This document shows positions 5,201 to 61,724 of a stretch of DNA of 64,000 nt, piece after piece; position 1 is the first letter of the stretch; each line of letters starts with the position of its first letter. The stretch comes from Macrocystis pyrifera (lineage: Eukaryota; Sar; Phaeophyceae; Laminariales; Laminariaceae), in the NCBI GenBank assembly GCA_031763025.1, contig JASSKH010000016.1, positions 5,270,001 to 5,334,000 on the forward strand. The letters run 5' to 3'. Position numbers and translations under genes: made by a program. The notes below the pieces were generated by a model. That model searched no databases and had not been told where the DNA came from. It saw only the letters and a program-made list of their open reading frames with translations.

Positions 5201-8182
5201 AAACCGGGCATGCAAATATATCTCTGCAAACCCTTAAATACCTTATGCTCTAATTTTCACACGTGATTTGCAAACATAATTGCACGCCCTTACGTACGAT
5301 GTGCTCTAGTTGCAAACCTGGCACGCAGACACGTATCTGCACACCCTTACTTGCTGTATGCTCTAATTTTGCACCGGGTGTGAAGATATATGTATGTCCG
5401 TACGCCCTTACGTACTGTGTCTAAGCACGCACCGGGTCGGCTATTAATAGTACATATCCACACAACACCCTTACGCACTACCTGGTATGTGCTTCAATTG
5501 CTCACCGGGTCTGCAAATATACATCGATACACACTGACGTATGTGTGCTCTAATTGCGAACCAGGTCTGCACTAATATCTCTGCACACCCTTTTTACGGG
5601 GGGACCATAGTAGACAGGACCTACGGTACCCACAAAGACCTATACATTTCCCTATTTTTTCTAACAATATTTGGTCCTATTTACTATGGCCCCCCCCCCC
5701 GTAATAGTACTTTTTGGTTATATATTGTGTCGGTTCTTTTTCATCTGCAGGTACCATACTTGGTGCTGATTACAGTACACAGGTGCTGTACCCATTTTAA
5801 GACCACCCAGTGAGTAAACAAGTTATGTACGTGGTCTCATCTCAAAACAATGTAGTACCTGGTAGTCTTTCTATATTTTCTCCCGAAAAAAATGATACCA
5901 TACTATTATAGTTCCAGGTAGTTTTCTGTCGTGACTTTCAAGCCGGTTTTTCCTGGTCTCATCTTATTTTCTATTACGGGGGGCCGTAGTAAATGGGACC
6001 AAATATTGTTAGTATTTAATAGATAAATATATATAGGGTTTTTTGTGTACCGTAGGTGCTACCAGGTATTTGTTTACTATGGTCCTCCGTAGTATGTCTT
6101 AACCCTTTCAGGACTGCAGTCCCATTTTGGCGACAAACCACTTGAAGCACTATTATCAAGTGCTTCGTCCCCAAAGCGAGATTGCAGTCCCAAAAGCATT
6201 GTAAATAGTACACCGATAGAGTAGGTCCTCTCGTACAGTATTCCGGGGGATCATAGTAAATGGGACCAAATACTGATGGTTAAAGTAGGTAAGTATATAC
6301 GGTAGGTTTTTGTGTGCACCGTAGGTCCTATTTAATATGGCCCCCCGTGATAGCAGTGTTTGGAGCCGCGGCACGGTGCGGGTTGCGATCAGGGGGGTTG
6401 CGCTTGTGAGCCCAAACAATTTTTAGGGTCTTCGCTAAGAATTTTGGTTGAAACCGATTTGGTTGGGTTTCTTGTCGTTGTTGTTTTTCCTGGTACATAA
6501 AAATGACCCCAACCCACGAAACTTTCGGACCTATCTTCTCGAGGTCGTGGCAAAAAGTGACCAAAGATGGCACTTTTCACCTGATTTGTTTTTTGCGGGG
6601 TTGGGGTAAACTCTTGGGAAGGGTCCGCGGGTTGGGGGGGTCATTTTTATATGTTGGAAACGGAACTAAATAATGTCAACCGAATGGGGCGTCAACTAAA
6701 ATCTTCGCAAACGCGAGATTACTGAAGGAGCGGAGGAGCTGTGCCCGATATGGGTACGAGTAGCTGAGCAAATCCTCACGGTGTACGGGTTGCGCTTGTT
6801 TTGCCTTCTGCGGCGATATTTTGTGACCGGTTGAGCTCCTCAAGTGAGCAACTATTGGTGTATCGATTAGTGCGGTCATTGCGCAAGCGCGGGTATAGCA
6901 CGCTGGGCGGGAATCTCAGCATTGTTCAGACATCAACATGAAAGACGAAGCAAAGCGAAGGGGTCCTTACATTTCCGCCCATAGCGGTACATGGTTTGAG
7001 GACAATCACGGGGGGGGGGGGCATGGTGATCAGGACCCATCATACACACAAAAACCTATATATATTCCAGTAGTTTTACTCATCTTATTGGGTCCTGGTT
7101 ACTATGGTCGGTCGGGTTTGCGCGAAGAAACAAGCGTTCTGTCGTGTGCAGGGGGGTGATATGTTGAGCTCCTTGCTCTTGCGAGGAGGAGCTCAGAAAA
7201 GAATGAGGCACCGCCCCTACATGCCGCCAGACTTGATTGCTCGTCTTTCGATCCCGATGTGTACGTTCTGCTGCGGGTGACCATAGTAACTAGGACCAAA
7301 TATTGTCAGTAAACATAGCGAAACATACTGGTTTTTTGTATGTACCTTGGGTCCTGTTTAATATGGTCCCCCGTTCTAGTATTACCGGGGACCATAGTAA
7401 ATAGGACCAAATATTGTCAGTAAAAACAGCGAAACATATAGGTTTTTGTGTGTACCGTAGGTCCTATTTACTATGGTCCCCCGTATTAGTATTCGTCTTT
7501 TTCTGCGTGAGCGTGGTCCGGAAGTCTTTTCCCTCTCTGGATCACTTCTCGGCAGGTACCAATCCATGACAAGTCTTGCATTGCTCCCTCTACTTGGTAA
7601 AAGCAAGTAGCACCCGTCCCCGAGCGATGCTGTACAGTATGCGTCGATTTTTGCAACTCCCCGCCCTTGAACACACCGTACCGACGACACCCGATCACGA
7701 ACAGGGTGGAGACCAACCCCGCTTGGGTCTATGTGGCTGGAGTGCGCGATGTGCCTCTTCTACGCCTACGACCTCTACCAAGTCAGGATCTCGCGGTAAG
7801 GACAGGCGTGTTCATGAGGGGGGGGGCAGGGGATGCGCTTTGAACCAAGTCAGGCTCTTAAGGTATATAAAACATTGCGTCCCCGCTATGTCGAGCTCCT
7901 ACAGTAGTGGTCGGTGGCGAGGGGAGAGGAGGGGAGAGGGGAGGGGATAAGATGTGTGTTTTTGTACCAAGTCAGGATCTCGATAAACATATAGCGCGCC
8001 TTCTGGCTGTATCAAACTCCTGTAGTGGCGATCGCCCCCCCTCCCCTCGCCCATCCCTCTCCTCCCCTGTCTTTTCCCTCCACCTCCCCCCTCCTCTTCC
8101 CTTGCCTTCCCCCTCCCCTCCCTCCTGTCCCCCCCCCTCTCCCCAACATGCTCCTCCCCCACCCCCCACCCCTCTCTTCCTC

Positions 8183-11063: not shown

Positions 11064-14000
11064 CGTCGTCGATAGGATGACTCCTGTGTTTTTCCTGATG
11101 TCGTTCGTGGGCTTCTTCTACGCCTTCCTTGGCTACGTCTTCTTTCGTGGAGACTCGTGAGTACAACGAACACGTCAGACACAGCACACACACAAAAAAC
11201 ACTATTTATTACGGGGGTCCATTGTTAATAGGACCTTTGGTATACGTAAAAACCTATATATTCACCTGTTTTTACTAACAATATTTGGTCCTATTTACTA
11301 TGGTCCTCCGTAATAATTACCGTGCAACAACTATCTCACGGGTGATGAGACAACACACCACCTGCCACGAATTTCCGAGCCGAGTTTCTCCAAAGCATGC
11401 CTTAAGGGGGGGTGGGCACACAACAACGGAAATGGTGGCGTTGTAAATATCTCGACGAGACTTTTCTATGGACGCATGCATCGCTCGGCGCTTGCACCCT
11501 CCCCATTGTCGAAAAAATCAGACCCGAAGTTCGTCCGAGGGGTGGTGTGTGTTATTTACGGGGGACCATAGTGAAGAGGACCGAATATTGCTAGTAAAAA
11601 TAGGGATATATATATAGGTTTTTGGGTGTACCGTAGGTCCTATATGCTATCGTTCCCACGTAATAGCTTACCGTGAGTGTTAACCGTATACGGTAAGCAG
11701 CGGCACAGGAGCCGTGTGTCGCCGGTACCACGTGTGCGGGTCATAGGCCTCGATTCTTGCTCATGATCTGTAGTGGTGCACCTACAGCAGGAGAGTTTTA
11801 TGGGGGTCCTCAGTTGATTGTATTGATTGTAGTGTAGGAGCTCTTGTCGCCCCACCCACAACCTGACCTCGAGAGAAAAAAAAAAAAAACGAGAGACGCG
11901 TGCAAGCGATAGGGGTGTACGAGTAGCACGTTTTGGCGAGAGTATTTTCTGAATGACGGAGCTCCTTGACCCAAAGTCGTCGGAACAATGCCTTTTTCGT
12001 TTTGGAAATCAATTCCGTTTTTGGGTGCCGAGGCCGCCGTGGGATTGTTCATCAACCATTGCAGGTTGACTTTTTTTCCTAGAGCCAGCGTTTGGTTGAG
12101 GTGTAAGAGGTCCTCAAGCGCGGAGTCTTACAGAAAAAAAATGGTGCACCTCTGCTGCTGAAGCATGTGTTGAAAGTGCAATCCGATTAACAATGCAATG
12201 GCCCTAGGGTATGTATCGAAGAATACTACTGTAGAACACAAATTATGTTCCAGCGTTAAGTTTTGGCTAGTTCTTCAATGCCCTTAAGGCGCTCCGTTAG
12301 GGGCCTTAAGGAGCTCCGTTAGCGCCCTTAAGGTGCTCCGTTTGTAGCCTTAAGGAGCTCCGTCAGTGGCCTTAGAGAGCTCCGTCAGTGGCCTTAAGGA
12401 GCTCCGTTAGTGGCGTTAAGGAGCTAATGGCCTTTAGGAGCTCCGTCAGTGCCCTTAAGGAGCCAGTGGCCTTTAGGTGCTCCGTTAGTGGCCTTAAGGA
12501 GCTCGGTCAGGGGCCTTAAGCAGCTCCGTCAGTGGCCTTAAGGAGCTCCGTTAGTGGCCTCAAGGAGCTAATGGCCTTAAGGAACTCCGTCAGTGCCCTT
12601 AAGGGGTTAGTGGCCTTAAGGTGCTCCGTTAGTGCCCTTAAGGAGCTCCGTCAGCGCCCTTAAGGTGCTCCGTTAGTGCCCTTAAGGAGCTCCGTTAGTG
12701 ACGAATATTGTGGCCGAAAATAGTTCGTACTTGGTGTACCCACATATCGTGCCACGCGGCCCTCTAGGAGAGCGCTCCTTGCCGTAGAGTAGAGTAGAGG
12801 AGGTTTCGGTTGGGTGTTGATGTGGAGATGAGATACAATAATGTTGGGTGTTGAGATCGATTTTGACTATGCTGAGATTTAATCAGATGGCTGTTGAGAT
12901 TGACTATGCTACAAGACTGTTGAGCTTTTGGGGGAGATGACGGTTGATGTTGAGTAGGTGACTGTTGAGATGGGAGTAGGATTTACAATCTGTGAGTAAA
13001 AATCTTTGGGGGTGTTTTGGACTTGAAAATTGCGTAGCGCGGTCTGCACTTCGGAATCGTCGTCCGCCATTGAGAAATTTCCTCGTTCGATGCAAACGCG
13101 GCGCGGTTGCGTTTATGGCCAGTTTTGGCCCGTTTTCGCTGCGGTTTTGAGGTCAGGGCTAGGGTTAGGGGTTGGGTCTTCGCCCGTTCCTTGATCCCAA
13201 CAGGAAGCAAAATAACTGAACATCCTTCCAACCTAAAGATCCGTGCTCACATATTGTAAGAGGACAGATGACGATCTAATGTACGGTAGCTCATCTCTAC
13301 GGTATGTATCCTATGCTCGCTCTCATAATGTCCTGTGCAAGAGCCTTATCACACAGGTACATTCCACCCGGCGAGCAAGCACGCAAGAGCGCGTGGTGTC
13401 ATATATACCGCACCTTTCAAACATAATCGAGGTCGTGCAAATAATGTATATATATATATAAATATATCTAGATGATGAAATGGGGATCTGTCGCTCCCCG
13501 GAGGTGCCGACTATGCGACTTACTGGGTTTTCCATATTTGTAGGAAGGATTGTTGAATGCGGGATATGTTTTTTCTTCTCTGGGCGGGGGTCCCTCGGCT
13601 GATGCGGGCCGATTTGGCTGGCTTTCGCTCGACGGACTTACCTCGGCAAGCCGGCTGGCCATGATTTTGGTTTTGTTATCCGACTTAGCGACTAAAGTCA
13701 ATTAGTTGGCTCAAGGCACCTACCGATTAGTTATCAGTCGTGAAATCCTGCCGTCTCACAGCTCTAGTGAAGGGAGTTTGACAAGAGGCAAACCTGGCTT
13801 TGACGAACGGGGTGCTTCAATCAACATCAGGTGTAACTGCTGTAGCTCTTCCGGTGTCGGTTCCCCCCCCCCCCCCCCCCCCCCTCTTCTCCTGTTGTTC
13901 CCGCTTGCTCCACCACCGGTGGCGTATTTTTGTCCGTTTTATTCGTGCCCGTTGTGTTATTGTGTGTTTGTTCTCCTGTCCACTGTACCAGGTTTTTTTT

Positions 14001-17000
14001 TTATCCGTTCCGTTTTTTTCTGTATGGTGTTTCTATCCGTTATTTTTTTTACCGTTTCGTTGTTGTCCATTGCACTCTTTGACCGTTTTGTTTCTTTTTG
14101 CCCATGCTGGCCCATGCTGGTGCCCCCCCCCCCCCCCCCCCCGCCGTTTTTTATTATCCGTTGCGTGTGATTTTTGTCCGTTGAAACAACAAGACGGGAC
14201 GAGAGTTTTTTGACCGGTCTGCCGCTCTTCGACCAGCCTGGATCTTCCGCCATGACGTTCCTTCGGATCTTCATGTCGATCCCGTTCATGCTGGACACCG
14301 AGAAGAAGTACGGCGGACGAAAAGTAAGGACCGTTGGTGGGGGCTGTGATGAGTTGGCTGTTGCCCGACTATAAATCCCGCCGACTAGTTATTAGCTGGC
14401 TAGGCACCGTTTATCGCACGGGTGATAAGATCACACACACCCTGGGGCCGAGTTTCTCCAAAGCAAGGGGGGGCATGTATGCATGCATGCATGCGACATG
14501 CATGCATGCATGCAGAAGGAAGTCGATGGGGGCTTTGGGAATATCTCGACGGCAAGTTTCCGTAAATAGACCGTTCGCTCGTCGGTTGGGCCTTCCTTCA
14601 CCTTTGTCGAGGAGGTCTGCTTCGAAGTTCGTCCGAAGGGATGGTGTGTTAGCCTTAGCCTTAGCCTTAGCCTTAGCCTTAGCCTTAGCGTTGGCGTTGG
14701 CGTTGGCGTTGGCGTTGGCGTTGGCGTTAGCGTTAGCGTTAGCGTTGGCGTTAGCGTTGGCGTTGGCGTTGGCGCGCGTTAGCGTTAGCGTTGGCGTTGG
14801 CGTTGGCGTTGGCGTTGGCGTTGGCGTTGGCGTTGGCGTTGGCGTTAGCGTTGGCGTTGGCATGTCATGTACGGTATTAAAGTTAGTTCCGTTCACAGTA
14901 AATGTTGCTATTCATAAGAGTTTTGCGTTTTTGTATCTGACTCTGGTGTGTTTTTTTTGGCTCGCAAACGTGTGCGTGTTCTTTTTTATCGGGAAGGACT
15001 GAAAGTAGGTTGGTCGGCTTTCTTTGCCAGCCAATAAGTTTCTATTACGGGGGACCATAGTAAATAGCACCAACGGTACACACAAAAACCTATATATTTC
15101 CCTATTCTTACTCACAATATTTTGTCCTGTTTACTATGACCCCCCGTGATACTCGGTTGGTCAGCTTGCTTTGCTTCGCCAGCAAACTAGTTTCTAGTCG
15201 TTTGGTCGGCTTCTACTTCGCCAGCCAACTATTAATAGTCCCTTGTCGGTTGGTCGGCTTCTACTTCGCCAGCCAACTAATTTATAGCCGTCACGTCCAG
15301 CCAAATCACAAGGCCTATCTATATATGCCACGTGTAGGCCACTGCAATGATTTATTTCGTGCTTTGCGGCCTACGACCTGGAAAACACGATGGTGTGATT
15401 TTCATGGGGGTCGAGCGCTGAAGACAGACAATCGAGTTTTGAGCCATGTACTAGAGCGGTCGAGGGGCGTTGTTGGCGTACCAGTGTCCTTCGTGGTGCG
15501 CGAGTTCCTGTTTTGAACCACGTTCGGCCGATAATGTATTCCGAGGGGAACCATGGTAAATAGGACCCCATAATGTTGTTAAAAGTAGGAAATATATATA
15601 TACCTGGTATATATTATATATATATATATAGGTTTTTGTGTGCACCGTAGGTCCTGTATACTATGGTCCCCCGTAATAGTAACCGTTTCTAGTACAGTCT
15701 GAAAATGAAACGGTGCATTATACTCACGTCGACAGACCCGCCGGTGGCTATCGGCAGTGAAAGGGAAAGGGGTGGGAAGGCGGGGTTTCCCAGAAGGAAA
15801 AGGGCGGACGGGCAGAGGGGGTAAGGAAGGCGACTGGCGGAAGGAGGGGAAGGACTTGGGGGGGGGGGGGGGGCGGGGGTGGGTGTCGCGGGGGGTGTAC
15901 TCGATCTCATGAATGGCCGTAGTCGTATGACCATAGACCCTCGTATCCTGTAATGCCAGGACGGAGCGCGTCGGGTTTTCACCGACCGGACAGACGTAGC
16001 TTTCACCAAGCGCGAAGCGCCATGCGAGTCGCATGAAGGGTGATCTGCATCGTACTGAGAACCGCTTGTGAAACGGACTTGCAAATGGATGGCAGCTTCG
16101 AAGGAATCGATTTGTTTTTGGTGTGGCCGAATCGAGTGAGGGGTAGGGGGCTTACTCATTTGTTGCTTGCCTTAGTCATTTACCATCGACCACGCATCCC
16201 TTTCGAGATGGGGGGGGGGGGGGGGGGGGGGGGGGTTCTCGATATCATGCATGGCCGTAGTCGTTTGACCATACTCTTGCAGTCCCTACAATGCCGGGAC
16301 GAAGCACGTCGGATTTTCACCGACCAGACAGACATCGCTTGCACTAAGAAAATATGAACACCAACACCACCACCAACATCAGCCATCATCACGCCCCACC
16401 AACGTCACCACCACTAGCACCACGACCACGAACCACCAATACCACCACCAACCCTAACCACCATCGCTGTGTGGCGGCCTCCATGATCGTGTCCGACCTA
16501 ACTCGTGTGACCCCCATTTTTCATGGCAGGGGATTCAAGTGTTGGGGCTATCGTGCGGAATGATTATGGTCATCTTCATGGGTGCACTAGTGCCCGCTGT
16601 GGCCAACCGGGCTTTCAAGCTGCAGTCGGGAGAGAGGCGAGTCCGCGATTTTTTGTTGTTGTTGTTGATAGATTACTTGGAATTTGTGTGGGATACGTTT
16701 TGGTGAGCGGCGGTTTACGATTCTCGCACAGGCTGATTCAAGCTGGATTCGATAAATATAGATTTATTTTATGCGTCCGAAGTCCACGCCGTTTTCTGGA
16801 GGTAGATCCTGAAGTGTTGTAAACGTGTTCTGTCGGCGCCTTTCAATCCGTTAATGAACGGCGTGTATATATATATTTTTGTCGCCAGATATAAACATAT
16901 ATATTCGATATTTGAGCCATAAGGAATCACAAGTCCCTGGCGAAAAAACAACAAAAAACACCCTTCGTTAACGGGTCGAAAGGGGCTTTTCACAGAGCAC

Positions 17001-25700: not shown

Positions 25701-27949
25701 ATTTTGTCAGTAAAACTGGGTAAATATATAGGTTTTTATGTATACCGTAGGTCCTATTAACTATGGACCCCCGTAATGGTGTATGTTGGTGTGTCGTGCT
25801 GCACCGCACACAAGAAAATACGATACGAAGCCGGATATAACGGTACCCTTGAGTCTCTCTTTCCTCCCCTACCCCCCCCCCCCCCCCCGCCTACCCCCCC
25901 CCCCCTATATATAATATATATGGTGGGTTGGCGTCGGTTGGCAACGACACTGTAAAGCATGCCGCTCATTACGTGAGCTAGGCAAACAGGGTATCGTTTT
26001 TTTTTTTTTTTTGGTGATCGGTCACAGCTGGTGGTCGAGTGAGATCATTTGTGCGGGGTGCAGAACATTTACTCGGCACAAGGGGGAATGATCGCATCAC
26101 GCAGTGTTTATGGTAAGGCACCCAAGAGGCAGTTACATAGTACCCCCATTGCTGTCTCTGGAAGTGGCCACACCGAAAAATAAATCAAGTCATTGATGCT
26201 GTCATCCGTATGCTAAGCCCGCCTCACAAGCGGTTCTCAGTACGATGCAATTCACCCTTTGTGCGACTCGCCGAACACCTCGCGTTTCGCTTCGCGCTTG
26301 GTGCTATTAATAGCAATGTCTGCCTGGTCGATGAAAACCCGACGTGCTTCGTCCCGGCATTGTAGGGGTGCGAAAGTCGATGGTCATACGACTACGGCCA
26401 TGCATGAAAATGAGTACACCCCCCCCCTCCCCCTCCGTCTCGAAAGGGATGCGTGGTCAATGGTCAAATGACTTAAGGCAAGCAACAAATGAGTACGCCC
26501 CCCCCCCCCCCCCCCCCCGATGCGGCGCCTTCGCGTGTCTGCCTCCGTGTCCACCGCCTTGGCGTGTGTCCGTGCTGTGTGGGACAGAGGTTGCGACGAG
26601 GTTGGAGTACGTATTTCCCTCGGTGTTTCGTGCGTCGTTCGTGCTCTTCTCGGTGACGTACTCGTACTCTGTGGTAGCCTTCGCCCTTTACTGTGACACG
26701 CCTCTGGGCATCTTGCCGGTGGACGGCGTGAAGGACGACACCATGATGCAGAGGTGGGTACTAAGGGCACTACTGTACTTACCGGTATTATAGTGGGTGT
26801 TTTTTTTTCTTTTCTTTTCTTTTTTTTTCCTCCCCCCCTTGTTTTTCACTTTGCTTGATCAAAAAGTTGGTGATGTTCTTTTGGTTCTGTTTTCGTTGAG
26901 TATATCGTGTGCCTCGTATGTGCAAAGTTGAAAACTATTGTACTGTAGTTTATGTCTTCAACTAGCACCGTATGCTCTTTTTTTTTTCTAAAATTAGTGT
27001 ATACCTGGTAGACTACATGTTCGAGTTCACACTATATGAGGATACAATTTGAACTTGAAAAGTGAAAAAAAAAACACACACACACACATGAGCTGTGAGA
27101 TCGAAGGTCACTGTCATCTCTTGGCTATCGTAGCCCAACCATGACGTATATAGTAAATTGGGTCTCGCTTTCCGGAATTGTAACACGCAAGAACACGCAC
27201 CCGTGCGCTGATTTTTTGAACCGACTTATCCCGAAACGAGGGGGGCACACAACAGGAGTACAAACTTTGGAAGTATTAAACCCCGCCCTATACTCTTTGA
27301 TACTATTACGGGGGACGGGGAACGCTAGTAAGTAGGATAGGACCTACGGTACACACAAAAACCTATATATTTGGTCCTATTTACTATGGTCCCGGGTAAA
27401 ATGATGTATATAGTAATAGTTGGTTTCGATGTTGGTTTGAATTCCGATGCCAACGGGATTCAGTGTTGATTTTGGATGCCTGTTTTGGACGGATAATTGA
27501 TTCCCCATGTTGATTCCGGATGTTCGATGCTGATTTCGATGCCACAATTGACACCCAAGACTGATTTTGACTCGGGTCTTGGTTCGGGTGCTGATTTTCT
27601 ATGCCAGGTGGATGAACTACAGTAACGTGATCTCGTTCAGCTCCTTGCTGGAGTCGTTCGCCTCGATGACGGATGTCATCATGCTTGGCTGCTGGACGAT
27701 CTTCAGTGATGCCGCTGGCGACGTGGGCAACTCGTACGTGGCGGCGTTTTTCTTCTACTCCTTCAAGGTGAGACCCTGTCGGGATATTTTCGCTGTCGTA
27801 TCACCTGCAGTCGTTCGATTTGGATCACCGTACGCGTTCGCAATGTAAAATTCGCGAATCATAATGACGATAGTGCAGCGTTCGTGTCGGGCTCGTGGCT
27901 TTTCCTGCATACACGACTCGCACCCACCACCACCTCACCCTCCCTCCAT

Positions 27950-28232: not shown

Positions 28233-31200
28233 AGGTAGTTTGTTTGGGCCCAGTTTCACACACAATCTCATTGAAACTCTTTCGCACAAGTTCAGTGGTT
28301 TCAACTATTAATATTTATATATACGTATGTACAAGGTTCCCCTTCGGGATGTGGGTAACGTGAAATCCCGGGGGCGTCGCAAGGCGTGTATAGAGTCACA
28401 GATAACACACGTATAGGTGTTGTTGGCGGAAACGGGAGCCATCGGTTAGCGCATTGCTCGAAGGAAAGAGCGATGTTAATATTACGGGGGTCCATAGTTA
28501 ACAGGACCTATGGTACGCACAAAAACCTATATATTTACCTATTTTTACTCACAAAATTTGGTCCCGTTAACTGTGGACCCCCGTAGTAGTAGTCGGCAGG
28601 AACTGAGTGCTACTCTCCCTGTGGTGGATACTAAACTGCTACATGCACGCGTTACCGTGGGTTGACTACTACCTGGTATACCGTCACTGTGTACACCACT
28701 ACCGCTACTGCTACGCAGATGTAGTACAGGTATTACGGGGGTCCATAGTTAATAGGACCTTTGGTTTACATAAAAACCTATATATTTACGTATCTTTACT
28801 ATTAATATTTGGTCCTATTTACTACTATGGTCCCCGTAATAGAAGCAGTAAAAGCTACCAGGTACACTACTTGTACTACTATTACGGGGGACCATAGTTA
28901 ATAGGACCAAATATTGTTAGTAAAAATAGCTAAATTTTTATAGGTTTTTGTGTGTACCGTAGGTCCTGTTTACTGTGGACCCCCGTAGTACGTACTGCTG
29001 CTGACCAAACGCTTGTACCCTGCAGACAACCTCATGGTAAACAGTAGCCAGAGAGACCGAATAGCCACGCGGTATCGTGGGTTGGGGCATGACTGTGACT
29101 ATTACTATTAAGGGGGACCAAAGTGAACAGGACCAAAAAAAAAGTAAAATATATACGTAGCTAGGTTTTTGTGTATACCATTTTTTTTGTGTATACCATG
29201 AGTCCTATTTACTCTGGTCCCCCGTAATACACACCGCAACCAGTAATACGTAGAGGCAGTACAGGTAGAAGCTGCATGAATAAATACTACCTGGTACACT
29301 ACAATACTTACTGTTACGGGGGTCCATAGTTAACAGGACCAAATATTGTTAGTAAAAATAGTCAAATATATGGGTTTTTATGTATACCATAGGTCCCATT
29401 AACTATGGACCCCCGTAATACTGCTCCTGTAATGCTACAACTTCCAGACAACGGCGACGTAGCATGCAAAGGGGTACCATGAGTATGAGTTAGGGGCACG
29501 ACTACAATATTGTTACTCTTAATGTACACCACTATTACGGGGGTCCATAGTTAACGGAACCAATTTTTTTTTAGTAAAAATAGGTAAACATATAGGTTTT
29601 TATGTACACCATAGGTCCTATTAACTATGGACCCCCGTAATACCACTACTACGCAGATAGATGTACTATTAATAATAGTAACTGTTTTGTAGTAAAGGTA
29701 GAAGCAGTGTCATGGTGATCGAAAGTCCGCCTTACCGTTGGTGGTGCCCGTTGCGGTATCTTCAGAGTATGACGGCACGCCGTGAGGAATTCAAGCCATC
29801 GCTGAACTCGGGGGTTGTGTTCCGCAACCGCGTGGCGAGGCTGTCGACAATTTTTCCGTGTGAGAGCGAGAGGTACGGTCCCCTTTTGTTAACCGGTAAT
29901 CAGCCTATCTATACAGCAGGCATCCTGTCAAAGCAGCATGCACGCTAAAAACTACCAGGTACCTGGTACTGCACTACTACAACTACGCTTCATAGTGACT
30001 TTGTAATTGTACAGGCGTACAGGTACGATATACGGTTGAGGGCATCTGCTATTGGCCAGGTAGAAACGGCATACAGAGGTAGACGGACCGAAGGGAGCCA
30101 CGTACGTGCTCGGTGTGAGGTGTGTGGTGTACGTCAAAGGGCTACGTGAAACATTCATGTATGACGCTCGACAGACGTGTATTGTTGCTCCTGCTGTATC
30201 TGCTGCAGCAATGCTCCTGCTGCTGAGGTCTGAGGTTGATAAAAAACGGGCGATTTCATTTTTTTAAAGATTTTAACGCAGAGGAAATTATTGTGCTCGT
30301 GCGGGATTGATTATGGTTGACGGTTCGCCACGACTCACGAGTAGGTTTCCAAGCCTATTGCAAAAAAAAAAAAGAACCACGAGACCACGGTCACTGGATT
30401 GCTCGACCTATACCTGGTGAACACTGCACACGCATACTATACGAACACTGCTGTTGTACTGCTGCTGCTGCTGCTGTAGTGCGCACCGTGGCTGCGCGTT
30501 GCTTTTGAAATACGGAGGAAGTGTGAGTTCGTACGAATCGTCGTCCTGCCCCTGGACAGCATCCAATAAAATCTGCACCTGTCTGGAGATTCGGTATGTG
30601 TTCGTTCCTGCTCCCTAGGTTGACAGGAATCACGGCTCACACACGCACACACACAAAAAAAAATGCGCTATCCGTGGCCGTCACAAAAGGGTGAGGTTGA
30701 TGAACGACTGTTGCTGCGCCGTGGCTGCCCTTCTGTAGAGAGCTCGAGGGACGGTGTGATCAGACATGATACAGCAGTACCAAGCAGCAGACTTTTTTTT
30801 TTTTTTTTAATTTTGGAGTCTCCATTGTCCTGCTTGGTTCTATTACGGGGGGCCATAGTAAATAGGACCTACGGTACACAAAAAACCTATATATTTACAT
30901 ATTTTTACCAACAATATTCGGTCCTATTTACTATGGTCACCCGTAATAGCAGGTCGGAATGGTTCCCCGTAGTTATTTGCCAGAAATCGTGACTTCGGAG
31001 GCCCAGAGCGCGCGCCACAGACCTTGGCCGGGGCTCGCATTTGCGCCGTGGTGTACACGCGGGCTCCCTCCCTCCCTGACAGTGTCCCTGATAGTGTGCC
31101 ACGCAGACTAGAGTGCGAGAGAAGCCCCCCGGGCGGACGAGAAAAGTAAAAACATTCCGGAAAAAATTCAATCTGATCTGATACAAAGTATTATATTAGC

Positions 31201-42256: not shown

Positions 42257-42368
42257 TTACCGGGGACCATAGTAAATAGGACCAAATATTGCTGGTAAAA
42301 ATAGGTAAATATATAGGTTTTTATGTATACCATAGGCCCTACCAGGTATTAACTATGGACCCCCGTAA
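42257..42368 (-). mobile_element. MITE-1 hybrid (A left, B right) with TACCAGGTA insertion
   Basis: Right arm split exactly at TA by TACCAGGTA (42340-42348). Confidence 0.9.
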
Positions 42369-42479
42369 TATCAGCATCTACAGTAGTAGTGTGGCAGACC
42401 TAGTCAGTTGATACTGCCAATACGTACTGTTCTAGTGCCAGCCCCATCAATTTGACGTTTTTTATCAAAATTTTGACGT

Positions 42480-43020
42480 TTTTCGTACGGGTGTGTACTC
42501 GGGTGTCGTACCCGCACTTGGGTACGGCCTCAAAAACCTCACCTAAACCTTACTAGGTACGTTACCCGGGTAGCGGGCAAACCCGTCTACGAAATACCCG
42601 GGTGCAGGTACGAGCCTGGGACGACCTCAATACCTTACCCAAGTTTTAGGTACGTTAGGTACGGACCCCGATACCTTATTTAAGTACTATTTATAGAGAC
42701 GTTACAGTAGTACGGACCTCGATACTATACCTAAGTCTTGGGTACGATAGGTACATGGCTCCAATACTTAATCAGGTATCGGGTATACCCGTCGACGAAA
42801 TACCCGGGTTCACGTACGAGCCTGGGGACGACCTCATTACCTTACCTACTAACAGTAAGTTTAGGTACGTTAGGTACGGATCCCGACACCTCGCCTTACT
42901 GCTTAGTGTTGGGTACGTTAGATACGGTCGTCAATACCTTGAGTAAGTCTTACCTGGTAGGTACGTTAGGTACGACCTCAAAAACTTATCCGAGTATAGG
43001 TATTCCTTCCCTGACATACC
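42480..43020. repeat. GGTACG satellite, block 3
   Basis: Contains TA-flanked insertions TACCTGGTA (42951), TACAGTA and TACTAACAGTA. Confidence 0.85.
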
Positions 43021-46440: not shown

Positions 46441-46950
46441 ATACTCGATATCATGCATGGCCGTGGTCGTATAACCACAGACCCTTGCATCCCTACGATG
46501 CTGGGACGGAGCACGTCGGTTTTTCACCAACCACACAGATACTGCTTGCACCAAGCGCGAAGCGCCGTGAGGTGTTCGGCGAGTCGCATGAAGGGTGAGC
46601 TACATCCTACCAAGAACCGCTCTTGAGGCGGGACTTGCATATTGATGACCGCGTCAATATGTTGATGTGACCACTTCCAGAGACAGCCATAGGGGTATAT
46701 GTAACTGCCTCGTGGGTGCCTTACCATAAAAACTACGTGTTACGATCACTTGTGCAGAGTAGAGGTTCTCCACCCCGCACAACTGATTTAACTCGATCGC
46801 CAGCTGTGACCGGCCGCCAAAAACAAAAAAAGAAAAATACATGGTACCCTGGTTGGTTGTCTACAGCAGTACATGACGTAGTGAGCGGCATGTTTTACAG
46901 CAGTGTCGTTACTAACCGACGCCAACCCAACCTGTACCTGGTATATAAAG
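46439..46950 (+). repeat. R2, full
   Basis: Diverged full copy with TACAGCAGTA (46862), an extra CAG and TACCTGGTA near its end. Confidence 0.85.
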
Positions 46951-49297: not shown

Positions 49298-49509
49298 TTG
49301 CGGGGGACCATGATAAATGGGACCAAACATTGTTATTACGGGGGTCTGTAGTTAACAGGACCTATGGCATACATAAAAACCTATATATTTACCTTGTTTT
49401 ACTAACAATATTTGGTCCTGTTAACTATGGACCCCCGTAATAGTAAAAATAGGGAAATATATAGGTTTTTGTGTGTACCGTAGGTCCTATTTACTATGAC
49501 CCTCCGTAA
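49298..49509 (-). mobile_element. MITE-1 type A, interrupted by a type B copy
   Basis: Arms TTGCGGGGGACC and ACCCTCCGTAA; split at TA by the copy at 49336. Confidence 0.9.
49336..49440 (+). mobile_element. MITE-1 type B, nested, with TA target duplication
   Basis: TTACGGGGG...CCCCCGTAA bounded by TA (49334-49335) and TA (49441-49442). The host interior rejoins as TTGTTAGTAAAAA when the insert and one TA are removed. Confidence 0.93.
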
Positions 49510-50679: not shown

Positions 50680-50801
50680 TTGCGGGGGGCCATAGCAAAT
50701 AGGACCAAATATTGTTGAAAAAAATAGGGAAATATGTACCAGGTATGGGTTTTCGTCTGCTCTGTACCGGAGGTCCTTGTTACTGCTGTTGTCCCCCGTA
50801 A
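50680..50801 (-). mobile_element. MITE-1 type A with two short insertions
   Basis: Carries TACCAGGTA (50737-50745) and an altered right arm with CTGCTGTTG. Confidence 0.85.
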
Positions 50802-53949: not shown

Positions 53950-56900
53950 CCCTTTTTACGAGCGTTCAACGGTCGTATTTAACGATTGCTACGACCTTAT
54001 TTTAACGGCCCCTTTTTACGACCGTTGAACGATCGTTTTCAACGATCCTTCTTTCCGGTTGTTGAACGATCGTATTGACCGATCCCTTTTTACCGAGCGT
54101 TGAACGATCGTTTTTAACGATATCTTTTTATGGACAATCGTTTTTTAACGATCCCTTTTTACGATGGTTGTTTTTAGGATCGTTGAACGGTCGTATTTAA
54201 CCCTTTTAGGACTGCAGTCCCGTTTTCGAGACAAACCACTCAAGGATTAACGATCCTTTTTTACGATCGTTGAACGATCGTTTTTAGCCATCCCTTTTTC
54301 ACGATCATTGAACGATCCTTTGTAACGATCGTTTTTTCCTCTTTTATAACGGTATCTGAACGATCGTTTTTAGCATGCCTCCTATCCGATCGTTGAACGA
54401 TCGTGTTGAACGATCCCTTTTATGAACGATCGTTTTTAACGATCCCTTTTATGAACGATCGTTTGCGATGGTCCCTTTTTCACGATCGTTGAACGATATT
54501 TTTTTACGTTCCTCCTTTCCGGTCGTTGAACGATCTTGTTGAACTATCTCTTTGTCCGATCGTTGAATGATCAGTGAACGTTTTGAACTAACCCCTTTTA
54601 CGATCATTGAACGATCGTATTTAACGATCTTTTGTAACGATCGTTTTCAACGATCCCTTTTCACGATCGTTTTGATCCAACCTTTGTAACGATCGTTTTT
54701 CCTTTGTAACGATCCATTTTAACGACCGCTGAACGATCGTCGTGTTGAGTGATCATTTTTACGATCGTTGAACGATCGTTTTTGACGATCTCTTTTTATG
54801 ATTGATTGTTTTTAACGATGCTGTTATACGATCGTTGTTAACGATCATTTTTCACGCTGAACGATCGTTTTCAACAATGCCTTTATACGATCGTTGAGCG
54901 ATCATATTTAACAATAATTTTTTACGGTCGTTTTTTAACGATTATTGTTTATGATCGTTCTGTTTAACAATCCCTTTTCGCGATCGTTGAACGGTCGTTT
55001 TCAATGATCCCGTTTTACGATCGTTGAACGATCGTTTTGAACGATCCCTTTTCACGATCGTTACCTTTTTCCGATCGTCCAACGATCGTATTTACGACCC
55101 CTTTTCACGATCGTTGAACGATCGTTTTCGATGTTACCTTTTTCCGATCGTTCAACGATCGTTTTTAACGATTCCTTTTGGCGATCTTTGAACGATCGTA
55201 TTTCGCTATAATTTTTTCCGATCGTTTAACGATCCTGTTTAACTATCCCTTTTTCCGATCGATCGTTCTCAGTGGTCTCTTTTTTCGAGCGTTTAACGAT
55301 AGTTTTTAACGATTTTCTTTCCGATCGTTGGACGATCGTATTGGACGATCCCTTTTTATCATCGTTTTCCGATTGTTTTTTACTTTTCTTTTTTCCCATC
55401 GTTGGACGATCTTCTTTAGCGATTTGTTTTTTCCGATCGTTGAAGAATACCAGGTACTCTTTAACGACCCTTTAACGGTCATTTTTACGATTGTCAAACG
55501 AGTGTATTCAACGACCCCCTATTTCGATCGTTGAACGATCATTCTTGACGAATCTTGTTTATGATCGTCGAACGGTCGTTTTTGACAATCCCTCGTTGAA
55601 CGATTGTTTTTTACGATTACTCTCCTGATCATTGAACGATCGTTTTCAACCCTCCCTTCTCACGATCAACGAACGATCATTTTTAACGATCCCTTTTTAC
55701 GATCGTTGAACGATCGTTTTTGACGATAACTTTTTACGATCGTTAAACAATCGTGTTTAACGGTCGCTTTTCACAACCGCTGAAAAATCATTTTTAACGA
55801 TCCTTCTTTACGATCGTTGAACGATCGTTTTTTTTTACTATCCTTCTTTCCGATCGTTCAACGATCATATTTCACAATCCTTTTTTCCGATCGTTGAACA
55901 ATTGTTTTTAACGATCCCTTCGTACGATCGTTGAACGATCGTTTTTAAACGATCCCTTTTTTCGATCGTTGAACGATCGTGTTTCACGATTCCTTTTGGC
56001 GATCGTTGAACGATCGTATTTAACGATCATTTTTCCAATCGTTTAACATCTTGTTTAACAATCCCTTTTCCCGATCGATCGTTCTCAGTGATCTCTTTTA
56101 TACGAGCGTTGAGCGATCGTTCTAACGATCCTTGTTTCCGATCGTTGAACGATCCCTTTTTACGATCGTTGAACGATCGTTTTTAGCGATACCTTTCCCT
56201 TTTCACGATGGTTGAACGATCCTTTGTAACGATCGTTTTTCCTTTCGAGCGATCCTTTTTAACGAGATTTGAACAATCGCTTTTAATGTTCCTCCTTTCC
56301 GATCGGTGAATGATTGTATTGGACGATCCCTGTTTACGATCATTGAATGATCGTTTTCAACGGTCCCTTTTTACGATTGTTGGGCGATGGTTTCTTTATT
56401 TTCCTCCTTTCGGATGATTGAACGATCGTATTGAAGCATCCCTTTTTCCGATTGTTGAACGATCGTTTTGAACGACCGCTTAAGACGATCGTTGAACGAA
56501 CGATCGTATTTAACGATCATTTGTAACGACGGTTTTTAACGATCCTATTTCACGATCGTTGAACGATCCTTTGTAACGATCGCTGACCGATCGCATTGAA
56601 TGATCCCTTTCTACGATCGTTGAACGGTCGTTTTTAACGATCCCTTGTCATGAAGGATAGTTTTCAGCGGTCCCTTTATACGATCGTTGAACGATTGTTT
56701 TTAACTATCCTTCAAAACGATCGTTTTGAACGATTCTTTGTTGCGAACGTTGCGAGCGTTGAACGACCGTTTTCAATTATCTCTTTTTTTGCGATCGTTG
56801 AACAATCGTTTTGCACGATCCCTTTTTGTGATCGTTGAACGATTCTTCCGATCATTTAACGATTGTTTTTAACACATTTAACGATTGTTTTTGACGATCC

Positions 56901-58095
56901 CATTTCGATCGTTGAACGATCTTTTCTAACGATCCCTTCTTCCCATCGTTAGTTAAACGATTGTTGAACGATCCTTTTTAACGCAATTTTATCAATCTCT
57001 TTTCACGGTTGTCAACGATCGTTTTTAACAATCCGTTGTAACCATCGTTTTTTACGATCCCTTTTCACGATCTGTGAGCGATCGTTTTCAACGATCCCTT
57101 TTTTTTCGACCGTCGATCGATCTTTTTGCCGATCGTTGAACGATTCATTTTTTCATCGTTGGATCCCTTTTTGCGATCGTTGAACGATCGTTTTTTACGA
57201 TCCCTTTTTCCGAACGTTGAACGATTGTTTTTAACGATCCTTTTTTTCCAACTGTTGAACGATCCCTTTTTCCGATCGTTGAACGATCGTTTTTAACGAC
57301 CCCCCTTTTCCCGATCGTTCCATTTTCGTTTCTGACGATCCTTTTTTTTCCGATCGTTGAACGATCCGTTTTCACGATCGCTAAACGATCGTTTTTAACG
57401 ACCCCTTTTACGATCGTTGACGATGGTATTGAACGATCCCTTCTTACGATCGTTGAACGATCACTTTCAACGATCGTTGAACGTTTTCAACGATCCTTTT
57501 TTACGTCGTTGAACGATTATATTCAACGATCCTTCTTTCGATCGTTGAACGACCATTCTTAACGATCCTTGTTTATGATCGTGGCACGGTCATTTTTTCA
57601 CCGTCTCTTTTTCCGATCGTTTATCATCGTGGAATGGTCGTTAGGTCATAATCCTTTTTCCGATCGTTTAACGATCATTATTGTTTAGGATCGTTTGACG
57701 ATCGTTGTTAACCATCCCTTTTCCCGATCGTTGAACGATCGTTTTTAGCGATCCCTACGATCGTGAATGCTCCTTTTTAACGATCCCCTTTCCCGATCGC
57801 TGGACGATCGTTTTCGACAATCCCTTTTTCCGATCGTTGAACGATCGTTTTTAACGATCCCTGTTTCCGATCGTTGAACGATCGTGTTTCACGATTTTGT
57901 TTTCCGATCGTTGAATGATCGTTTTTCGACAATCCTTTCTTTCCGATCGTTGAACGATAATATATCGCAATCCTTTTTTCCGATCGCTGAACGATCGTTT
58001 CTAAAGATCCCTTTGGACGATCGTTGAACGACCGTTTCTATAGATCCCTCTGTTTTTACGATCGTTGAACGATCGTTTTTAATTATCCCATTTTA
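53950..58095. repeat. 4.1-kb minisatellite of palindromic units
   Basis: Unit of about 36 bp: CGATCGTTGAACGATCG (a near-perfect dyad) then TTTTTAACGATCCCTTTTTA. Well over 100 degenerate units; one MITE-2 arm and one TACCAGGTA interrupt it. Confidence 0.95.
54199..54246. mobile_element. MITE-2 single arm inside the 54-58 kb minisatellite
   Basis: CTTTTAGGACTGCAGTCCCG and GACAAACCACTCAAGG interrupt the array. Confidence 0.7.
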
Positions 58096-58099
58096 CGGT

Positions 58100-60280
58100 C
58101 AACAGGATGTTCGCAGAACGAAGATGACTTTCCATGAAGCACAAGAGTTTCAACGGGCGAAAACCAGTCCGAAAAGGCGACCAGGATCCAAAGAGGAGAG
58201 GTCACAAAAAAATTTTGGAAACTCTTTATTCTGTCTCAAATCAATTCTTGTTGCCGTGGTAGCTGCCTTCTATTGATAGATTCGGTGTTCGGGAATAATC
58301 GATTTCCTTTTTTGCGTTTTTTCATTTGATCGGTTACTTGTTCGTTTGCAAAATCGAAGATCTGGCTGTTCGCCTGCTGCCTCTGATCGATTCCGCGTTT
58401 GCACGACACGGAGAGCAACAAACGGTTCGTTTTATACGTAGGCCGTCGGGTTGCACTTTTTCTTTTTTTTTTCTCAATCAAGACCAGGGCTTGGGTGACT
58501 TGCTAGTGACTTACAAATAGTATACAGCTTTTCAAGCGAGGAGCCCCAGAAGACAAGCACGTACACCCCTATTGTGTGTAACGATTATCGTATCGATAGC
58601 ATTTTGTCCCCCATCCCCTCTGACATTCCCCTAATATGCGTCCTGATTCTGAACGAAAGGTGTCACGTCGGACAGATCATGTACAGATCATCTACAGATC
58701 ATTCCTACGTCATGGCCTAGACCTTTCAGGGCAGACATGTCTATTCCTGATCTGTATGATCTTTGTGATGACCTGTACATGATCTGTATGATTTAGCCCA
58801 TGTTGCCGAGTGGGAGCCGTATAATCCGCCTATGATCTGGGACATGTTTCCTGGGTTAGATCTGTGCGAAACAGTACATCATCAGGAAATATGTACCCAC
58901 TACTAGTATGTTCGTGCATAGAGGAACCGTTTCGATTGAATAATAGTGTAAAAAATGCCATTATCTTCAGGGACTGAGCGGTACTGCACGACATCTCGCA
59001 GCGGCAGGTCGGGAACTGTACCAAGTTGTCTGTAGATCATGATATTATATGCCCGACGTGTGAGAGGTTTCGACGTAACGTATCCACACCGAAATCGTCG
59101 TATGGATTAGATTTTTCGTTTGTCAGCATCCTCCCGAACTCGATTCTCGTTCGATGTCCCATCACAACTATCATTGGTGAGCGATCGTGTCCATGAAAAC
59201 GGGATGCGACGATGTTGTCCCCCGATTTTTGCATTTTGGGTCGCCCATCACTACTAGTCGTAGTCCCTGTGAGTTTGCTGGCTTTAAAAACGCGTGGTGC
59301 GTTTTTTGGGCTTGGATTTGCGTTTTTGTTTTCATACAGACTAAGATCAATATGTTGGCGTACTCTCGCCACCCAACTACTACCTTGTCGCGAAGTTCAA
59401 TCAAAGCGCTCTTTCCGTCACGGTTTCGGCCTGTTTGCCGTCCATCACAGTCAGAGACTTTAGGCTGTCGTCTCCTAGTTTATCGTGCGTGCCATGCATA
59501 GCGCCAGGTTTTATTAGTGCTGCATGCTGCCCGCCCGACCGGGTGCCATACCAAGGAACCTGCTGCTATGGTTGTTTTTGGTGGTGGTGGCGATGGTGGC
59601 GATGTTGGTGTTGGTGCTGGTGTTGGTGGTGTTTTGTTTTTTCAGGCGTGTGTCGAATTGTAGTCCCCGAACTCCGAAATTGTTTTGTGCTAAATCAACC
59701 CCCTCAAGTTCCCCCCCCCCCCTCTCCGAACACAGCGAGCAATCAATTCATTGAAGTATGTGTTGTTAAGCATTACGCTAAGTAGTTGCTATTAAGCATT
59801 CCATTCCAGATTTAGTGGGGCCTGTCTGGCTTGTGTCCTGTCACCACGGACTAGATTATGGCGCCGAGCTTATGCGAGAAGGGTCGCACGGCAGAATTAC
59901 TGCCCTACTGCTCTACTGCTCTCCTCTAGATTGGGTTAATGTGAGAACAACGGAAGCAATTTCAACAAGAAGGGCTTATCCCAGCTTCAACGGACTGATG
60001 GATGTGGCGCGTTCTCTCGTCTCTGCAGCTTTCATTCCGAGAAGTTTCCCCGGGCTGTGGGGATACACGGCTCGTCTTGTTGTTGTTCGTGCGTGTTGTT
60101 GTTGTTGTTTTTGTTGTTGCTGATGTTGTTGACGGGAGTGGTGGTGGTGATATTTGTGTTGTTCAGCATAGGTATTATTTCACTCCAGAGATATTGGAGC
60201 CTTGCTTGTGGCTTGTGACTTGTGACATGATGGCGACGGGTTAATGTGACAGCGGCTTCCCTCTGGAGTTATCGGGGTCT
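58100..60280. other. Intergenic, no supported gene
   Basis: GATC-rich repeat at 58660-58860, GTGGTGGTTGTT-type stretches at 59575-59640 and 60075-60150; open frames are short. Confidence 0.4.
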
Positions 60281-60283
60281 ATG

Positions 60284-60510
60284 ATGATGTATGCTATTAG
60301 TAATGATGATGAGAGAATCCATGAGCCAATGATGATGATGATTATGGCCATATGATGATGCAAGAGGAATGATGATTGATGTTGATGCATGATGATGATA
60401 TGATGATGATGATAATGATGATGATATGATGATGATGATAATGATGATGATAATGATGATGATGATAATGATGATAATGATGATGATAATGATGATGATA
60501 ATGATGATGA

Positions 60511-60551
<41 letters not shown>

Positions 60552-61273
60552 ATGATGATGATGATGATGATAATGATGATGATGATGATAATGAATGATA
60601 TATGATGATGATGATGATAATGATAAATGATGATGATAATGATGATGATGATGATATGATGATGATGATGATATGATGATGATGATGATGATGATGAATG
60701 ATGATGATGAATGAAATGATGATGATAATGATGAAATGATAATGATGATAATGAATGATGATGATGAATGAATGATGATGATGATGATGAATGATGATGA
60801 TGAATAATGATGATGATAAATGATAATGATGATGATGATGATGATGAATGATGATATGATGATGATGAATGATGATGATGAAATGATGATAATGATATGA
60901 TATGATAATGATAATGATGATGATGAATGATAATGATGATGATGATGATAATGATGATGATGATGATGATGATGAATGAAATGATAATGAATGATGATGA
61001 TGATGATGATGATGATGAAAATGAATGATAATGATGATGATGAATGATAATGATGATGATGAATGAATGAATGATGATATGATGAATGATAATGATAATG
61101 ATGATAAATGATGAATGATGATGATGAAATGATATGATGATGAATGATGATGATGATGATGAATGATAATGATAATGATGAAAATGATGATATGATGATG
61201 ATAATGATGAAATGATAATGATATGATGAATGATGATATGAATGAATGATGATAATGATGATGATAATGATGA

Positions 61274-61314
<41 letters not shown>

Positions 61315-61455
61315 ATGATGATGATAATCACGCTATTCTGACATTATCAGATACCTGATACAACATGATGATGATATGCAAATGATATGATGATGATGAT
61401 GATACATGATGAATGATGATGATGATGAGCAGATGATGCTCTTTGTATGATAATG
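60284..61455. repeat. ATG/ATA trinucleotide microsatellite array
   Basis: About 1.17 kb of ATGATG with ATAATG and AATG interruptions. A 329-codon Ser/Ile/His open frame on the minus strand is a by-product. Confidence 0.97.
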
Positions 61456-61724
61456 ATAATGATGATGAACACTCCCCCCCCCTCCCGTTTCGACAATGCC
61501 TTGACCTTTACTGTTGAGGCCGTAGGTCTTGACCCCCCCTCTCCCCTCTCGTTTTAGAGAGTGCTGTCTCTGTGAGTGCATATGATAAAAGTCAAGGAAA
61601 ACACTAGTTCTAGTCTGACCCGCGTGTGGTTCCAGTATTACGAGAAGACTTATTATAAAAAAATACGATTCCACCCCTCTCCCTATGTTGTATACCTGGC
61701 ATAAATATATAAATATATATATAC

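Follow-up and report, generated by a model that had tools for sequence, protein, structure and literature searches.

The footprint word of the transposon Sleeping Beauty is TAC[A/T]GTA, Stowaway elements end in CTCCCTC, and pogo-like elements target TA. According to the description in PMC7827188, Sleeping Beauty is cut in a staggered manner, which produces 3' overhangs of 3 nt, and its footprint is identical to this overhang. The scar lengths given are 0-3 bp for ZB and Sleeping Beauty (PMC7913693) and 0-4 bp for the pogo-like Passer (PMC9976928). In the grasses, Stowaway scars are described as holding up to 6 bases in all, and those of Stowaway and Osmar5 vary, with 1-4 repeat bases beside each TA, e.g. 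TACTCC...AGTA (PMC1925063). CTCCCTC is also the end given for rice Mariner (PMC4423477). The accounts consulted examined excision footprints by means of assays, at individual loci or by comparing two genomes.

We analysed a window of 64 kb, i.e. the whole stretch C196:5270001-5334000, of a kelp genome of 537,376,219 bases in 223 contigs (largest contig fetched 26.5 Mb). Repeats in this window are interrupted by the palindrome TACCWGGTA, which resembles the product of Sleeping Beauty and other Tc1/mariner transposons as described: TA is duplicated, and an odd palindrome with W at its centre is left, which would consist of terminal bases and result from overhang repair. Unlike the 3-nt overhang and CWG scar of Sleeping Beauty, the dominant kelp scar CCWGG comprises 5 nt, our searches yielded no donor, and about 1e5 copies are estimated for a single genome. 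The kelp scar is also longer than the lengths given for ZB, Sleeping Beauty and Passer (PMC7913693, PMC9976928), which counts against excision, though the totals given for grass Stowaway reach 6 bases (PMC1925063). Stowaway and Osmar5 in grasses are similar in that the terminal bases left behind by a MITE or mariner-like element are flanked by TA, but in contrast to kelp CCWGG, these scars, as described, do not form one symmetric product (PMC1925063). Within the open-licence literature searched, we found no prior report of the kelp scars, which are best read as excision footprints.

Abundance of the palindromic words

All eight positions named in the initial annotation carry the words assigned to them, including TACAGCAGTA at 46862. 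Its counts by eye (about 20 TACCWGGTA and about a dozen TATTAATA, far above chance) proved accurate: the window contains 21 and 14 copies, compared with 0.59 and 1.02 expected from shuffles, and neither count was reached by any shuffle. The same annotation had proposed to look for enrichment elsewhere in the genome. Both words were enriched in a sample of 200 kb (GC content 50.3%), which consisted of 20 x 10 kb at fixed places, not randomly drawn, on 20 other large scaffolds (L009-L028). Here TACCWGGTA occurred 40 times (1.55 expected from an order-3 Markov model) and TATTAATA 43 times (4.68 expected), and the two words were at the top of the listed 9-mer and 8-mer palindromes, respectively. 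At least one TACCWGGTA was present in 17 of the 20 stretches. Provided that the 20 places are typical, extrapolation gives about 103,000 copies of each word per genome (95% interval about 71,000-143,000). TACCWGGTA is a real, strong and genome-wide feature.

Window and sample were combined to 264 kb for the following analyses; L001-L008, which had been fetched as MITE-1 matches, were excluded from every count. Of 101 TACCAGG in the 264 kb, 61 had TA as the next two bases, and S-centred TACCSGGTA was present at just 5 sites. TACAGCAGTA was found 25 times (1.6 expected), e.g. at positions 5005, 20502 and 30770 of the window. A further word, TACTCGCAGTA, occurred 11 times with 0.2 expected.

Restoration of interrupted repeats

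According to the initial annotation, the repeat consensus is regained in the clean cases when CCWGG and one TA are taken out. We deleted the five bases (or another insert) together with one TA and compared the best repeat match before and after deletion in the 264 kb. Of 60 CCWGG sites tried, 15 had a spanning repeat match; 11 of these matched better in the restored form, 2 matched worse and 2 were ties. The last four count against an excision model. Among other TA-N5-TA sites, 33 were better and 345 worse of 409 testable (Fisher p 7e-10 vs CCWGG). The claim is thus borne out in bulk (11/15 vs 33/409), while 42340 and 15601, two of the positions named, were not clean passes. The named positions 6060, 42951, 50737, 55448, 26305 (TATTAATA) and 46862 (TACAGCAGTA) did pass.

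The TACCTGGTA footprint in a satellite repeat at 42951-42959 improved from a score of 56 to 70, and another TACCTGGTA at 46935-46943 from 69 to 75. For TACCTGGTA at 693-701, a spanning repeat match was obtained for the restored form only (0 to 57). Two TACCAGGTA footprints in MITE-1, both with extra residual bases seen by eye, improved from 67 to 75 (6060-6068) and from 65 to 79 (50737-50745), and TACCAGGTA in a minisatellite at 55448-55456 from 0 to 51. In a repeat at 4947-4955, TACCAGGTA appeared as a TA-duplicating insertion in self-BLAST. Repeat R2 carries TATTAATA at 26305-26312, which was detected by self-BLAST and improved from 125 to 132, and TACAGCAGTA at 46862-46871.

The MITE-1 copy at 42257-42368 (plus strand) consists of the 105-bp element and 7 additional bp, has TA on both sides and was delimited with borders taken from a nested MITE-1. 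It carries TACCAGGTA at 42340-42348, at the TA of GGCCC-TA-TTAAC (consensus GGTCC-TA-TTWAC), the same site that was followed genome-wide (see below). This footprint is clean when compared with the MITE-1 consensus but absent from the better-restored sites, probably because another MITE copy, at L018:8258, is interrupted identically at this position. At 15601-15609, word scan and MITE-1 alignment placed TACCTGGTA in a TATATA run of MITE-1 within a 31-nt insertion. Altogether, 62 MITE-1 copies showed 31 insertions of at least 3 nt; five copies contained TACCWGGTA, two of them aligning cleanly, and TACCGTA and TAAATTTA were present once each. A TACGGTA insertion (CGG plus TA) in MITE-1 at 6298-6304 was seen in self-BLAST and in the MITE-1 alignment. 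The TA duplication at the CCWGG scar was observed in self-BLAST, in the MITE-1 alignment, in the restoration test and in the one-site assay described below.

An extension of the footprint reading to TACAGCAGTA in general was not supported. The insert CAGCAG gave only 2 better and 10 worse results at the 12 testable sites in the 264 kb, the copy at 46862 being one of the two. CCGG, the insert of TACCGGTA, was better at 0 of 3 sites in the 264 kb, which counts against the excision model insofar as CCGG is regarded as its by-product. Neither TACAGCAGTA nor TACCGGTA found support as a general footprint in this test.

Two CCWGG in tandem with a common TA were found twice in the 264 kb, at 29953-29968 of the window (TACCAGGTACCTGGTA, word scan) and at L012:8640-8655. 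Tandem scars were also contained in 5 of 22 rows of one search for occupied sites at the MITE-1 TA. These double scars suggest repeated hits at one site.

Insertions at a single TA of MITE-1

Insertions of 1-30 nt were collected genome-wide at one TA of MITE-1, defined by the fixed flanks TAGGTCC-TA-TTWAC. Exactly CCWGG, which represents 2 of the 1024 possible pentamers, made up 122 of 258 insertions. This total and that of the shifted split (234, see below) are whole counts, and the sequences were listed for the first 100 of each. Among the 100 listed here, CCAGG occurred 27 and CCTGG 16 times, accompanied by the near relatives CCATGG (3), CTGG (2) and single copies of CCGG, CCGGG, CCCAGG, CCCTGG, CCAGGG and CCTG as well as by one-base slips. 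In the other MITE-1 arm CCWGG accounted for 19 of 92 insertions, all of them listed. The minor products over both arms (CCATGG, CCGG, CTGG, CCAG and CCAGGG) are as expected if the same ends were joined imprecisely. CCAGG and CCTGG were present at 38:24 in the listed rows, with no departure from 1:1 (p 0.10). The parallel to Sleeping Beauty TACWGTA drawn in the initial annotation holds for the W centre, but CWG scars themselves are a minority (1 among the 100 listed, 3 of 92 in the other arm).

Among the 100 listed insertions, the arms carrying CCWGG had AA, TT, AT or TA as background, and therefore it probably arose more than once. Part of the 122 copies may share their footprint by descent, as a scarred MITE may itself have been copied, which is a further point against the excision model. 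In C220:7472538-7937950, seven MITE-1 arms (of the 92) within about 0.47 Mb have the same GTG insertion, which probably arose once and was then duplicated.

Shifting the split by two bases gave 234 insertions; in the 100 listed, CCWGG was absent from the split itself, and a single CCAGG lay at the adjacent TA. As the shifted split is next to, or interrupts, a second TA that has no TA 7 nt away, the comparison demonstrates that CCWGG is rare at such an adjacent TA and specific to the first one; it does not demonstrate that non-TA positions are spared. The pattern for ordinary uninterrupted arms gave 12,450 matches, a rough arm number, so that very roughly 1 in 100 MITE-1 arms has the CCWGG scar at this TA. 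As one scar type represents almost 50% of the short insertions found here, the MITE copies serve as thousands of parallel insertion traps. Such traps offer a route to past or hidden transposons even if the element is no longer found, with overhang length and target preference being readable from the scars.

Target preference and spacing of TA

The flanks of TACCWGGTA show A at -6 with a frequency of 0.54 vs 0.26 (p 7e-11); this A belongs to a second TA 7 nt out. A TA exactly 7 nt outside was present in 36 of 121 flanks (background 7.6%) and, after removal of flanks adjoining another scar, in 27 of 108 (p 3e-8). At least one side of 31 of the 61 CCWGG scars, and both sides of 5, had a TA at this distance; the pentamers between the paired TAs were diverse. 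The heavily scarred MITE-1 site, TA-GGTCC-TA, has the TA-N5-TA form, too. The equal 7-nt spacing in target and scar hints that the enzyme recognises TA steps at a distance of 7 nt, in the target as well as at its own end. In MITE-1, another TA was located 3 nt outside in 27 of 69 flanks (about 0.10 for any TA; copies in the window and in L009-L028), and there is also a TA 3 nt inward from its own tip. This arrangement parallels the distance of 7 nt seen with the CCWGG scars.

MITE-1 and TATTAATA

A split-alignment search for nested insertions yielded one clear case, a MITE-1 of 105 bp at 49336-49440 (plus strand) inserted at a TA of another MITE-1. It is flanked by TA on both sides (TAs starting at 49334 and 49441), as expected of a target-site duplication, and reads TA-TTACGGGGG...CCCCCGTAA-TA, its ends matching at 11 of 12 positions. 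Terminal inverted repeats are also evident from a TTACGGGGGACCAT-like sequence at both ends of many copies. Judged from the nested copy, the tips inside the TA are TT...AA. MITE-1 does not have the Stowaway terminus, its end TTACGGGGG being different from the CTCCCTC described for rice Mariner (PMC4423477). It was absent from the plasmids and viral contigs searched.

TATTAATA is probably the footprint of MITE-1 itself, because it shares the target preference of the element and its bases agree with the tips TT...AA. The flanks of TATTAATA and those of MITE-1 insertions alike favour A at -2 and C at -1; MITE-1 insertions additionally favour T at -3. Scored with the MITE-1 flanks, TATTAATA reached a mean of +0.08, compared with -0.90 for any TA and -0.90 for TACCWGGTA. 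The idea of the initial annotation that TATTAATA would fit excision of MITE-1 thereby gains independent support. It seems unlikely in the face of this shared preference and of the identity with the tips that the TATTAATA scars derive from another element or are ordinary A+T-rich words, although several observations point that way. Restoration was weaker than for CCWGG, with TTAA giving 7 better and 4 worse of 11 (other tetramers 72 better and 501 worse of 617; p 1.4e-4), and chance explains 6.5 of the 57 TATTAATA in the 264 kb. TTAA was found in 0 of the 100 insertions listed at the MITE-1 test TA, and among the 100 listed for the shifted split TATTAATA was present at the test TA in four, of which one was clean.

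Search for a donor element

The initial annotation had postulated an unseen element with CCAGG-like ends and proposed to search for such termini. We recovered 485 TA-flanked inverted-repeat pairs from the 264 kb, mostly MITE-1, and none had CCWGG at both ends; one pair had it on one side only, inside other repeats (62124/63179 of the window). TACCWGG without a following TA was present at 81 places in the 264 kb, none with a recurrent continuation that was taken for an element. The few continuation pairs among them were copies of other repeats, and A at -6 was found in 22 of the 81, which is the background rate. Beyond TACCWGGTA, 12-mers recurred in the 264 kb only in MITE-1, in one minisatellite, in G runs, in double or neighbouring scars and in one TATTAATA-bearing pair. 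Searches for occupied sites with CCWGG ends at the MITE-1 TA returned 15, 20, 8 (right ends) and 22 rows and no recurrent element. By eye nearly all of these rows were mutated or double scars; 3, 1, 0 and 4 rows (eight in all) ran into unique, mutually unrelated sequence with no matching right end.

At the protein level, Pfam DDE_3 gave 0 matches in the genome. Pogo-like DDE_1 domains gave 39, several with open frames of more than 330 codons, and with their TA target pogo-like elements resemble the sought donor. The two copies fetched (L029 and L030, 72% identical over 959 aligned bases) differ from it in that no terminal repeats linked to CCWGG were found in them. Ten open reading frames of the window had no credible Pfam match (best E 0.11), and Rfam and tRNA searches of the window found none.

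Thus, no recurrent donor with matching CCWGG ends emerged at the MITE-1 site or in the 264 kb, which agrees with the element having been called unseen and at the same time counts against the excision model. If a CCWGG-ended donor exists, it has to be scarce, to have been lost or to be excised in nearly every case. It may be a low-copy pogo-like element, extinct, or removed nearly every time. We consider it possible, if rather doubtful, that the scars record a ghost transposon, which would target TA with a preference for TA-N5-TA and form 5-nt CCAGG overhangs, having left about 100,000 scars, whereas the transposon has disappeared, is very rare or is removed nearly whenever it inserts. If this is true, the end, the cut pattern and the target rule of a transposon can be read from its scars alone.

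Excision model and alternative explanations

Very probably TACCWGGTA is the scar left at TA by cut-and-paste excision, in which CCAGG-like overhangs anneal to each other. In this model, a transposon would insert at TA with duplication of the TA. On excision, the enzyme would cut one strand at the tip of the element and the other a few bases inside, and each flank would retain a short 3' overhang of element sequence. Two CCAGG overhangs could anneal to each other by four pairs around one central A:A mismatch, and resolution of the mismatch to A or T would leave TA-CCWGG-TA. Loss of the mismatch or slippage could yield CCGG and CCATGG. For MITE-1, with its tips TT...AA, TATTAATA would be the corresponding 2+2-nt scar. 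One dominant product with a W centre would be explained by this self-annealing of CCAGG with an A:A mismatch. The footprint reading of the initial annotation is upheld by the enrichment beyond the window, the restoration of repeats, the preference for a W over an S centre and the 122 of 258 insertions at one site.

The scars might also arise directly, CCWGG and TA being added at a TA as a 7-bp micro-insertion without a full element ever having been present, e.g. by abortive transposition delivering one end. The extrapolated 1e5 scars, facing a heavily scarred MITE-1 site without a recurrent occupant, speak for this explanation, and so does the TA spacing of the insert (7), which equals the preferred TA spacing of the target. 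Annealed overhangs would nevertheless be expected to give just such a W centre and such minor products, and in the same genome MITE-1 has both an element and a scar; we regard direct insertion as quite improbable. Still much less probable is it that the words are no insertions at all, being a repeat motif inherited by descent or a functional site. Many of them do sit in repeats, the MITE copies at 42340 and L018:8258 have a common insertion, and the GTG insertions in C220 demonstrate that copies of one event do exist. But CCWGG is shared by several repeat families, both arms of MITE-1 and several backgrounds contain it, its flanks in the 264 kb are diverse, and the repeat-motif explanation is largely refuted by the one-site assay and the restoration test. 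A sequencing or assembly artefact can practically be dismissed for scars that are bound to TA, have a target preference of their own and are spread over scaffolds. Excision remains the preferred explanation, and a steady source of 7-bp insertions in the kelp genome is indicated.

Other repeats in the window

The window contains three further repeat arrays. A long minisatellite with units of about 37 bp, rich in the palindrome AACGATCGTT, extends from 54000 to 58110. A 22-bp tandem repeat (CCTTAAGGAGCTCCGTTAGTGG, about 20 copies) is located at 12282-12700, and an interrupted ATG triplet repeat of about 1.1 kb at 60329-61468.
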